Below are positions 59,741 through 62,754 of a stretch of DNA of 64,000 bases, piece by piece (within the stretch, counting starts at the first letter, position 1; every line of letters starts with the position of its first letter). A program made the position numbers and the translations under genes. Location: assembly GCA_004298045.1 (NCBI GenBank), contig SCRM01000021.1, forward strand, positions 248,001 through 312,000. Reading direction: 5' to 3'. The notes under the pieces are model-generated. The model searched no databases. It saw only the letters and a program-made list of their open reading frames with translations, and was not told the DNA's origin. Source of the DNA: Rhodanobacter sp. (GTDB lineage Bacteria > Pseudomonadota > Gammaproteobacteria > Xanthomonadales > Rhodanobacteraceae).

Positions 59741-60163
59741 GTGGAACAGGAAACCAAAGAGTTGCGCAGGGTCGGCCTCAAGGTCACGCACCCGCGCATG
59801 CGCATCCTGCAAATCTTCGACGACGAATCGGGCAGCCATCTTTCGGCCGAAGACATCTACAAACGCCTGCTTGCCGATCAGGAAGACATCGGCCTGGCAA
59901 CCGTGTATCGCGTGCTGACCCAGTTCGAGGCAGCCGGCATCCTCATCAAGCACAACTTCGAAGGCGGGCAAGCCGTCTACGAGCTCGACCGCGGCCAGCA
60001 CCACGATCACATGGTGGATATCGACAGCGGAAAAGTGATCGAGTTCGTCGGCGAAGAGATCGAGCGTCTGCAGCACGAAATCGCCGCGCGCCACGGCTAC
60101 GTGATCGAGGATCACAGCCTGGTGCTGTATGTGCGGCCGAAAACGCGCACCCGCAAAGCCTGA
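59741..60163 (+). CDS. fur: Ferric uptake regulator
   Basis: Fur represses iron-uptake genes with ferrous iron as cofactor. The 140-residue protein has the winged helix LKVTHPRMRILQIFDD, DIGLATVYRVLTQFEAAGI and the metal/dimer domain with HHDHMVDIDSGKVIEFVGEEIERLQ. The cysteine pair that holds structural zinc in E. coli Fur (CLDCG) is replaced (VDIDSG), as in several xanthomonad Fur proteins. GTG at 59741 follows GGAGG. The shared bamE/fur spacer carries a likely -10 (GATGATACACT). A bidirectional-looking hairpin follows at 60188-60220. Confidence 0.94.
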   Translation: MEQETKELRRVGLKVTHPRMRILQIFDDESGSHLSAEDIYKRLLADQEDIGLATVYRVLTQFEAAGILIKHNFEGGQAVYELDRGQHHDHMVDIDSGKVIEFVGEEIERLQHEIAARHGYVIEDHSLVLYVRPKTRTRKA

Positions 60164-60181: not shown

Positions 60182-60380
60182 AAAAAAATCGCGAGGGAGG
60201 ACTCCTGTCCACCTCGCGATCGTTTCGGTACCTGACTGGATATCCGGCAGGGCGAGTTGCTCGCAACGAGCCGACGCATCCAAGGTAACGACAAGACGGC
60301 ATCCTGCCATCTGTCCGGGGCCACCGTCCCCACGAGGACCCCGGTACGCCATCTTGCGATGGCGGCTCCCCCACATCGAT
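60182..60380 (-). ncRNA. Candidate small RNA with AGGA hairpins (RsmA/CsrA-binding type)
   Basis: On the minus strand a promoter-like pair (see next entry) predicts a start near 60380. A strong hairpin plus seven T ends at 60182, giving about 200 bases. The RNA would fold GACAGAUGGC-AGGAU-GCCGUCUUGUC (60290-60315), a ten-pair stem with one bulge and AGGA in the loop. A second AGGA tetraloop, GGAC-AGGA-GUCC (60199-60210), sits on top of the terminator stem AUCGCGAGG/CCUCGCGAU. Several further GGA motifs occur. Hairpin-loop AGGA is the known recognition element of CsrA/RsmA. No open frame here looks coding. Alternatively it is only the 3' tail of the kinase transcript. Confidence 0.4.
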
Positions 60381-60386
60381 GACTGG

Positions 60387-60415
60387 ATCGTAACGAAGCC
60401 TTTACAGGCTGTGTA
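60387..60415 (-). promoter_or_regulatory. Possible promoter of the candidate small RNA
   Basis: On the minus strand TACACA (60410-60415) and TACGAT (60387-60392) stand exactly 17 bases apart, each matching four of six sigma-70 consensus bases. They lie just after the stop codon of the kinase gene. The small palindrome AGCCTGTAAAGGCT sits between them and could be a regulator site. Confidence 0.4.
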
Positions 60416-60427
60416 TCGGAAAATTTC

Positions 60428-62041
60428 CTATATCGGCGAAAGGTTGCCGTCGGACTCCGTGGCGCAGCGCAGCAATACGTGCAGATGAACACCACGTGTC
60501 TCCGGCCGCAGGCGGAATACGCCGCCGAGCGACGTGACCCGATTGCGCATGCCTTGCAAACCGCGTCCGCCGTCGGCATGCGCACTGCGCAGGGTGCCGG
60601 GCAGACCAACGCCGTCGTCACGCAGGTCGAGCAGGGCGAGCACCCCACCAGCGCGCTCGCCGACGCGCAGGCGCAGGCGAAATTCGCTGGCGCCGGCATG
60701 TTTCACCGTGTTGGTCGCGCTTTCCTGTGCCAGTCGATAGATCGTGGTGCGGGTGTCGTCGTCAAGCAGTCGCGGGTCGCCGTGAAGCTCAGTGTGGTAG
60801 CGGATGCCGGCGGCATGGAACAAGTCGCGGATCGGACCCTCATCCAGCGCGCGCAACAACCCGAATTCATCGAGTACGGCTGGCCGCAGGTCGTCCAGCA
60901 GCCGATGCAGTGCGCGCCGCATATGCGCGAGGATGCCGTTGATCGAAGTACTGATGTCCTGCATGCCCGCTTGCTGCAGCCGGGTCTGCGCCAGTTTCAC
61001 GTGGGTCTGGATGGCGGTGATGTTTTGGCCGAGTTCGTCGTGCAGCTCGGCGGCCAGGTGGCGGCGCTGTTCCTCGTCGGCTTGCAGGTTGCCGCGTGCC
61101 GCCGTGCGCAACTGGCGGGCAAGCTGGTCAAGACGACGGTTGGCAGCGGCCAGATGGGTGTTTTGCTCGGCCACCCGCCGCTTGCTGCGGCGCAGGGCGT
61201 CGGTGGCCGAACCGAGCATCAAGATGCCGGTACCGGCGACGGCAAAAAACAGGTAGCTGGCGGCCGACGGATCGTAGCCGAAGCGCTGATCGAGCAAGGC
61301 GGTGCCAAATGCCGATGCTGCCATCGCAAGGCTGGCGCCACGCCAGCCGTGGCGGAAGGCAAAGAACAACACCGGCGCGAGTGACAGTGCGCGCACAAAC
61401 TGCGGCTGCGGCGCGAGGCGGTCGGAGAGCACCAGCAGGATCGCCAGCACCGGCAGCATCACCAGCAAACCATCGAGCAGCAACGCCGCAAGCTCGCTGC
61501 GACCCGGCGGTGCACGCAGCAACAGCACCGTCACCGGCACCACCAGCAATACGCCGAGATATCCGCCCAGGAGCTCATAGCCCAGGGCTTGCCGCATTGC
61601 GGCGTTGGCGATGCTGGTGTGAAGGCCGGTCATGATGCCCATGTCGACCGCGGTAGTGCCCGACACCACGAGGGCGGCCGCAAGCAGCAGGCGTGCGGTT
61701 TCCTGGGGGTTGTGCAGGTTGGCGACTGCATGCGGGTTGAGCCGCCGCAGCACCCACAACCCGCCAGCGGTGGCCAGCGGCTCGGGCCATGCGCCCAGGA
61801 AATAACCGCGCCATCCCATTGGCAGACCCAGGTGCAGGCTCATCACCGCACTGGCCGTCAGCTCCGCGCCGATCACCCAGCCCCAGCGTCGCACCGGCCA
61901 TAGCAGCAAGGCAGCAAAACGCACGCCATACGGCAGCATCCAATACGGCTCGGCGGTAGGCCACAGCAGGAGCCACAGCGTGAAATAGCCCGCGCCGAGC
62001 AGTGGGCCGGATTGCAGCAGGCGGTAGGGCGTGGGGGACAT
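60428..62041 (-). CDS. Membrane histidine kinase, MASE1 sensor with HisKA_3 core
   Basis: The 537-residue protein has eight or more N-terminal membrane helices in a MASE1-like sensor (about 1-280) and then a NarL/UhpB-type kinase: LAAELHDELGQNITAIQTHVKL with the phospho-accepting H334 (HisKA_3), and the ATPase boxes AQESATNTVKHAGA, LRDDGVGLPG and GGRGLQGMRNRV. Such kinases pair with LuxR-type regulators, and one is divergently placed at 62119. The signal is unknown; MASE1 often senses small molecules in the membrane. ATG at 62041 is the likely start; a GTG at 62047 is possible. Its downstream side holds the candidate small RNA. Confidence 0.93.
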   Translation of the reverse strand: MSPTPYRLLQSGPLLGAGYFTLWLLLWPTAEPYWMLPYGVRFAALLLWPVRRWGWVIGAELTASAVMSLHLGLPMGWRGYFLGAWPEPLATAGGLWVLRRLNPHAVANLHNPQETARLLLAAALVVSGTTAVDMGIMTGLHTSIANAAMRQALGYELLGGYLGVLLVVPVTVLLLRAPPGRSELAALLLDGLLVMLPVLAILLVLSDRLAPQPQFVRALSLAPVLFFAFRHGWRGASLAMAASAFGTALLDQRFGYDPSAASYLFFAVAGTGILMLGSATDALRRSKRRVAEQNTHLAAANRRLDQLARQLRTAARGNLQADEEQRRHLAAELHDELGQNITAIQTHVKLAQTRLQQAGMQDISTSINGILAHMRRALHRLLDDLRPAVLDEFGLLRALDEGPIRDLFHAAGIRYHTELHGDPRLLDDDTRTTIYRLAQESATNTVKHAGASEFRLRLRVGERAGGVLALLDLRDDGVGLPGTLRSAHADGGRGLQGMRNRVTSLGGVFRLRPETRGVHLHVLLRCATESDGNLSPI

Positions 62042-62118
62042 CCGCACGATGGTACACGGCGCGGCAGCCTAACTTCGGGCATCGGCGCCAAGGCGCTGCG
62101 GTGTGTAGAGTAGGAAGC

Positions 62119-62754
62119 ATGTACAGCATCGTGCTGGTCGACGACCACGCCATCGTCCGCGAAGGGTTCAAGCGCCTGATCGGGTTGGAACCCGACCTGC
62201 AGGTTGTGGCCGAGTGCCGCACGGCGGACGATGCCGTGGAGGCGGTGGCGCAGCAGCATCCGGATCTTGTGGCAGTGGACCTTTCCCTGCCGGACGGCAG
62301 CGGCTTGCCACTGATCGAGCATTTGCGCAGCGTGGCACCCGCAACGCGCATCGTGGTGCTCAGCATGCATGACGGTGAGCCTTACGTTTCCGAAGCCCTG
62401 CGGCGCGGCGCCAGCGGCTACGTGACCAAGGGCGTGGCGCCCGAGGAGCTGGTCGCCGGCCTGCGCGCAGTGATGCAGGGGGAGGAGTTCCTGAGTTCGG
62501 ATCTGCGCCAGCGCCGCGCCGAGCAGCCGGAATCGACGCTGGACCCCCTGCATCGGCTCACGGCGCGCGAACACGAGGTGTTCTTGCTCTTGGCGCGCGG
62601 CCGCACGCCGAAACAGGTGGCTGCCGAGCTTGGCATCGGCCAGAAGACCGTCTACATCCACCGCGCCAGCGTGATGGGCAAGCTCAATGCCGGCTCGGAG
62701 CTGGAGCTGTACCGCATGGCGAGCGAGCGCGGTCTGCTCTCGGCTGCTGGTTGA
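62119..62754 (+). CDS. LuxR/NarL-type response regulator
   Basis: The 211-residue protein has a receiver (acidic pocket D8-D9, phospho-accepting D54 in VAVDLSLPDGSG, S in VVLSMHDG and K in GYVTKG) and a C-terminal LuxR helix-turn-helix (LTAREHEVFLLLARGRTPKQVAAELGIGQKTVYIHRASVMGKL). The layout is that of UhpA. It is divergent from the kinase gene with about 75 bases between, so the pair likely forms one two-component system with overlapping, autoregulated promoters. ATG at 62119 follows TAGGAAGC. Confidence 0.93.
   Translation: MYSIVLVDDHAIVREGFKRLIGLEPDLQVVAECRTADDAVEAVAQQHPDLVAVDLSLPDGSGLPLIEHLRSVAPATRIVVLSMHDGEPYVSEALRRGASGYVTKGVAPEELVAGLRAVMQGEEFLSSDLRQRRAEQPESTLDPLHRLTAREHEVFLLLARGRTPKQVAAELGIGQKTVYIHRASVMGKLNAGSELELYRMASERGLLSAAG

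Follow-up and report, generated by a model that had tools for sequence, protein, structure and literature searches.

Which kind of element lies between fur and the sensor kinase gene that converge on each other in this Rhodanobacter genome and, if it is a regulatory RNA, what would switch it on and what would it act upon? Within the window (the whole stretch of 64,000 nucleotides that was analysed) fur is found at 59741..60163 on the plus strand, where it serves as context only, and the kinase gene at 60428..62047 on the minus strand. A preliminary description had read the sequence in between as a short RsmX/Y/Z-like RNA of some 200 bases. What is added to it below is a palindromic box, the association with the neighbouring two-component system and the distribution over the family. 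We consider it likely that the locus encodes an RNA of a new family, about 199 nt in length, which has its own promoter, is activated by the adjacent two-component system and titrates CsrA with about four GGA sites.

A structured RNA gene between fur and a sensor kinase gene

The RNA gene is located on the minus strand at 60182..60380, between fur (+) and the convergent kinase gene (-); its limits are predicted at both ends and correspond to about 199 nt. The fold of the RNA has an energy of -98.6 kcal/mol, compared to -80.3 (sd 4.7) in 200 shuffled versions, all of which it surpasses (z = -3.9). Pairing was evaluated in two alignments: i) A4, of 14 sequences, which was not fitted to the model and from which the covariance model R1 was built; and ii) A8, of 96 distinct copies, which was fitted to the structure and is biased towards it, a fitting of which A4 is free. 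In A4, changes on both sides were found in 12 of the 50 pairs, a count lowered by misalignment of the terminator arm in three sequences, and the proportion of paired cells was 96.0% versus 91.7% after shuffling, with none of 500 shuffles as high. In A8 both-side changes extended to 43 of the 50 pairs, with 95.4% of the cells paired; 595 cells were counted versus 151 after shuffling, and the covariation score was 0.375 versus at most 0.097 for slid versions. The 96 copies derive from 99 chosen loci (66 + 33) that were given to the model, minus three duplicates, and exclude six loci that are discussed below (L079-L084) and six regulator-only genomes. The element is a conserved structured RNA gene.

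The structure comprises, all on the minus strand: helix 1 (60347..60364), with a mostly GNRA-type loop and both-side changes in 7 of 7 pairs; helix 2 (60315..60344), with such changes in 9 of 12 pairs and with the top CGU-GGGG-ACG (60325-60334), which holds GGA site 2; helix 3 (60295..60311), GAUGGC-AGGAU-GCCGUC, with 6 of 6 pairs and GGA site 3; helix 4 (60225..60291), a long-range pairing of UCGUUACCU with AGGUACCGA, with 8 of 8 pairs and 90.3% of its cells paired; helix 5 (60253..60263), CGAGCAACUCG, which is without GGA and reads CGAGC.A.UCG in 73 of 96 copies; and a terminator hairpin (60182..60220), with 10 of 13 pairs, GGA site 4 in its GGAC-AGGA-GUCC top and seven T behind it. At 60366-60385, an invariant 5' CGAUG could pair with the CAUCG of the first arm of helix 1, which would be a possible alternative fold.

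Several of these elements had been noticed before. The hairpin with the AGGAU loop is indeed present at 60315-60290, although its stem, described as one of ten pairs, has only six in the conserved helix 3. The GGAC-AGGA-GUCC element was recovered at 60210-60199 on the terminator stem, with the seven T at 60188-60182. Alignments lacking conserved pairing and AGGA loops had been named in advance as a refutation, and the outcome was the opposite: the stems covary, as described for the 43 pairs above, and the loops that had been proposed to carry AGGA retain a GGA in 94 (helix 3) and 95 (terminator) of 96 copies. The conserved stems and GGA sites support the view of a short RsmX/Y/Z-like RNA, for which we infer binding to CsrA/RsmA.

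Distribution

The DNA of the RNA region matched 14 of the 15 genus genomes; the genome without a match is a 1.5 Mb assembly rated as 85% complete. With R1, one full-length copy was recovered in each of 144 of the 233 genomes of the family, over 17 of 26 genera. Among named genomes a 19-base pattern yielded 107 stretches, 80 of which were searched with a model R2: 68 carried the RNA (66 at full length, 2 cut by the end of the locus) and 12 were without a strong match. The named genera with the RNA are Rhodanobacter, Dyella, Luteibacter, Frateuria and Fulvimonas. R2 matched 99 of 398 genomes of the order sample, 98 of them within the family and the remaining one (G339) with 33 nt of terminator (E = 0.004), and 1 of 369 genomes of the class sample, which is the source genome itself; both runs used stricter filters by which weak matches were lost, and the misses include the regulator-bearing genomes G145 and G153.

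At E ≤ 1e-62, 64 of 299 order genomes carried the gene for the adjacent response regulator, and each of these 64 belongs to the family. Comparison by eye over the 233 family genomes gave RNA and regulator together in 141, RNA only in 3, regulator only in 15 and neither in 74. Nine of the 15 regulator-only genomes were examined: five contained a full-length match at the expected place (E 3e-13 to 3e-7), two (G153, G154) contained the box described below while the model found nothing, and in two (G193, G204) the contig stops within the kinase gene; at least 5 of the 15 carry a diverged RNA. The RNA-only genomes are G194, where the contig stops beyond the kinase, and G182 and G183, where the RNA persists and no regulator was found. 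Contigs titled Thiobacillaceae bacterium (L128) and Candidatus Eremiobacteraeota (L162) carry the RNA as well, at 175 and 163 bits, and are probably mis-binned or mislabelled contigs of Rhodanobacteraceae.

Gene neighbours and control region

The gene order around the RNA is conserved. Of 20 loci taken from 16 other genera, 19 place the RNA next to the gene for a UhpB-like sensor kinase with MASE1 and HisKA_3 domains, together with the divergent gene for a UhpA/MctR-like response regulator with a receiver and a LuxR-type HTH domain (62119..62754, plus strand, in the window); recN comes next in 18 of the 20. Kinase and regulator resemble UhpB/UhpA and MctS/MctR, yet neither reaches the curated cut-off of any NCBIfam model shown, and the regulator of the window, with 134 bits to the UvrY/SirA/GacA model at a cut-off of 280, falls outside the GacA/UvrY equivalogs. 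A second regulator, encoded outside the window (G000:C10:66048-66677), is more GacA-like with 209 bits to NF007018, also below the cut-off of 280, and might act on the RNA as a second input. The source genome contains one copy of csrA, and csrA occurs in 221 of the 233 family genomes, including all 144 that have the RNA according to R1 (lists compared by eye). The CsrA of the source genome has both leucine 4 and arginine 44, residues that we take to function in RNA binding.

A promoter-like pair with 17 nt spacing had been proposed in front of the RNA, and it is found there on the minus strand: a weak -35-like hexamer TACACA (60410..60415) and, after 17 nt, a -10-like hexamer TACGAT (60387..60392), whose first two bases are part of a CGTTA that is kept in 94 of 96 copies. 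The pair agrees with the sigma-70 consensus at 8 of 12 positions, where the threshold of our simple scan was 9, and that scan listed neither the promoter pair nor the terminator; it is conservation, not consensus, that supports a putative promoter and terminator. A 5' end near 60380 would fit the conserved -10 element. The -35-like hexamer is overlapped by a palindromic box, TAGGAAATTTTCCGATA (60414..60430, minus strand), the first three bases of which form the stop codon of the kinase gene and which we propose as the site of the response regulator. The box TAGGAAWTTTTCCRATA, which we take to differ in sequence from the GacA site, precedes all 96 copies (73 exact, 17 with one mismatch, 5 with two and 1 with five), with a gap to the start of the model of 29 in 81, 30 in 14 and 31 in 1 of them; its centre would be at about -42 if the RNA starts at 60380.

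The box is largely confined to the RNA. Over 61 genomes 28 exact boxes were counted by eye, one per genome and all at the RNA, and an exact box occurred in 0 of 24 genomes of other families. Among the 30 sampled genomes that bear the RNA, 28 have the exact box there and two a box with a single mismatch; box copies with one mismatch away from the RNA were found in G116 and G240. In the source genome no second target was evident at up to three mismatches: there are four further places, besides the RNA site that reads on both strands, versus 2 in the reversed control. One branch of genus g23 has fur and the RNA parted from kinase, regulator and recN (L071, L076, L077), and in L074 kinase and regulator are missing while the RNA is present; in these four loci the box has 2 to 5 mismatches and the RNA and its -10 element are retained. 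The box thus seems tied to the regulator, as far as these sequences go, although boxes with two mismatches also occur in L131 and L152. The g23 branch with its decayed box amounts to a natural experiment on the proposed circuit.

GGA sites and G-rich elements

GGA site 1, the single-stranded GUGGGGGAG (60366..60374, minus strand), is kept as such in 90 of 96 copies. The trinucleotide itself is present in 93 copies at this 5' strand, in 96 at the top of helix 2 and in the numbers given above for the helix-3 and terminator loops, with all four aligned sites occupied in 91 of the 96; these sites remain constant while the stems vary in sequence. There are 7.4 GGA per RNA, compared to 4.7 in shuffles, and CAGGA[UAC]G is found in 87 of 96 copies, with 0.056 expected per RNA. 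The predicted openness of the four sites in the source RNA is 0.75, 0.67, 0.97 and 1.0, with the A of site 2 paired, so that several unpaired GGA, a mark of CsrA/RsmA-sequestering RNAs, are predicted. The exceptions are L115 and L078, without GGA in the helix-3 loop, L071, L076 and L077, without site 1, and L068, which has GGA in both loops but no CAGGA; in L078 (genome G106) the RNA is kept and the CAGGA loops are absent altogether.

According to PMC7652899, CsrB carries the repeat CAGGA(U/A/C)G in loops or in single-stranded stretches, and SELEX with CsrA gave the consensus RUACARGGAUGU, with ACA and GGA invariant and with six-base loops on weak stems favoured. Helix 3 and the top of the terminator resemble this consensus, but their loops have 4-5 bases and their stems are stable. 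Sequestration requires several GGA motifs, as stated in the part of PMC2375449 concerned; on the other hand, a mutant of the Xanthomonas RNA RsmU in which all four GGA motifs were changed was still bound by RsmA in vitro (PMC7694677, in the experiment described there), and because of this mutant the GGA counts prove neither side.

Four diverged members of one genus (L079-L082) were found beside regulator, kinase and box. The CAGGA of helix 3 is gone in three of them and mostly paired in L080, and a CAGGA[UAC]G hairpin is open (0.97-1.0) at a new position, with the GGA kept in the terminator loop; since these are close relatives, a single event may account for the turnover. L083 and L084 have no model match; in the region, assigned there by position alone, GCAGGAAGC is open as well (1.0 and 0.91). 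The reappearing motif favours, at the level of sequence, a partner that would read it, while L078, free of CAGGA loops, speaks against such a partner. Through this apparent movement of the site, the requirements of a CsrA decoy could be tested on natural variants.

The most invariant element of the RNA is the GUGGGGAC loop, present in 96 of 96 copies and kept even in L078. Of the 96 copies, 95 keep the G-rich element CGUGGGGACG (60325-60334) and 90 keep GUGGGGGAG (60366-60374), which is likewise G-rich. CGU-GGGG-ACG is not a classical CsrA loop, as the A of its GGA is paired, and CsrA binding does not fully explain CGUGGGGACG and GUGGGGGAG; CGU-GGGG-ACG and GUGGGGGAG look like a second module. 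The conserved helix-5 hairpin CGAGC.A.UCG is likewise left without explanation by a role as CsrA decoy. A more specific variant, in which the locus is an independently evolved counterpart of Gac/Rsm, the RNA is the main or only direct target of the sensor pair, the CAGGA loops titrate CsrA and GUGGGGGAG and CGU-GGGG-ACG pair with other RNAs, is put forward tentatively, as a possibility that we hold to be rather doubtful in this full form.

Alternative explanations

The position of the terminator hairpin between the convergent fur and kinase genes would suit a mere two-way transcription terminator, a reading that is extremely improbable, given that each of the six helices, spread along 200 nt, covaries and that sequence far from the terminator is conserved; as a full account, a plain terminator is refuted by the covariation in every helix. 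A small protein could be suspected from an open frame of 235 codons that starts at 60376, yet the lengths of the copies split 32/32/32 modulo 3, stops are scattered and ATGTGGGGG is missing in 8 of 96; this frame analysis of the 96 copies led us to reject it, and the chance that it holds is practically negligible. The RNA might also be the processed 3' end of the kinase mRNA, comparable to RsmU and without a promoter or regulator of its own: in 19 of 20 loci it comes directly behind the kinase gene in the same orientation, and RsmU originates in that way according to its description in PMC7694677. However, the RNA and its -10 element persist without the kinase upstream, both where the two are parted (L071, L076, L077) and where kinase and regulator are missing (L074), and the RNA is therefore not merely a tail of the kinase mRNA; the box and its spacing are retained in the other copies. 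We regard such a processed origin as highly unlikely.

A role as base-pairing RNA deserves somewhat more weight, unlikely as we judge it to be. Here GUGGGGGAG and CGU-GGGG-ACG would pair with C-rich mRNAs or with the C-rich loops of small RNAs such as sX13, and CsrA would have a minor part or none. It would account for GUGGGGAC being the best conserved element (96/96) and for its survival in L078 after loss of the CAGGA loops, and sX13, with the loops CCCC, CCCC and CCCCC, acts on 4G motifs according to PMC3771888. It leaves the conserved CAGGA and ACAGGAGU loops, and their reappearance elsewhere, unexplained, and sX13 has been reported only from Xanthomonas, Xylella, Stenotrophomonas and Pseudoxanthomonas.

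Proposed mechanism and relation to known systems

The reading that we prefer, an RNA activated by the neighbouring sensor pair and titrating CsrA, would work as follows. The membrane-bound MASE1 kinase would read a signal and phosphorylate the adjacent LuxR-type regulator, which would bind the palindrome over the -35 region and recruit RNA polymerase. Transcription would then begin at the RNA's own promoter, directly behind the kinase gene, and stop at a terminator whose loop is at the same time a GGA site; as the RNA accumulates, its approximately four GGA sites would titrate CsrA off mRNAs, in the manner of CsrB or RsmX/Y/Z. The best reading, in our view, is a compact switch of the Gac/Rsm type that employs another two-component system. 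The comparison establishes the conserved structure and GGA sites, the order of the genes and the box, whereas transcription and each step of action, from phosphorelay to titration, are proposed.

The RNA shares with RsmX/RsmY/RsmZ and CsrB/CsrC several GGA motifs that are predicted to be unpaired, a rho-independent end and a two-component system as likely activator, next to an upstream palindrome that may be an activator site, and with CsrB the CAGGA(U/A/C)G loops (as described for CsrB in PMC7652899). It differs from them in that their Rfam family models are not matched, in that the palindrome is of another sequence than the GacA site and in that the likely activator is UhpA/MctR-like and encoded beside the RNA. 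No match at the gathering score was obtained with Rfam for the window; when the limit was relaxed to E = 10, a microRNA model (E = 4.1) was the sole hit, and the loci of five relatives gave only tmRNA, elsewhere in the loci. An earlier description of the RNA was not found in the open-access literature (subscription journals and preprints lay outside the scope). The logic of two-component system, small RNA and CsrA is common to the Gac/Rsm and BarA/UvrY/Csr circuits; unlike in Gac/Rsm, the regulator reaches 134 bits versus the cut-off of 280 and the kinase is of the MASE1/HisKA_3 kind.

RsmU of Xanthomonas belongs to the same order, binds RsmA and has about four GGA motifs, and it is, in the description at PMC7694677, processed from the 3'-UTR of the comEA mRNA and reported only from Xanthomonas; the new RNA, with its own conserved promoter region between fur and the kinase gene, is set apart by that description. 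Like sX13 of the Xanthomonadaceae, another small RNA of this order, it is strongly folded and has apical loops that are its likely contacts; the loops of sX13, however, are C-rich and its gene follows polA (PMC3771888), while the new RNA has G-rich loops and follows the kinase gene. Loops rich in C, such as those given for sX13 in PMC3771888, would be able to pair with CGU-GGGG-ACG and GUGGGGGAG. The nearest relatives by kind are RsmX/Y/Z and CsrB, and the nearest by taxon is RsmU, as characterized in PMC7694677.

In 2017 it was stated in PMC5568370 that GacA/S orthologs are present in every species for which RsmA-regulating RNAs had been validated, and RNAs activated by other factors were predicted. 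The idea of Gac-independent activation is therefore not new, as it was proposed there before; the novelty is a conserved RNA case that is linked to its candidate activator. For Xanthomonas, a paper of 2014 stated that no homologs of rsmB had been found and suggested an undiscovered mechanism (PMC3937308), after which RsmU was reported in 2020. If our reading is true, a sister family of the same order would gain its CsrA antagonist and, next to it, a candidate for the activator, which makes the pathway directly testable, and the same control logic would have been assembled from other parts.
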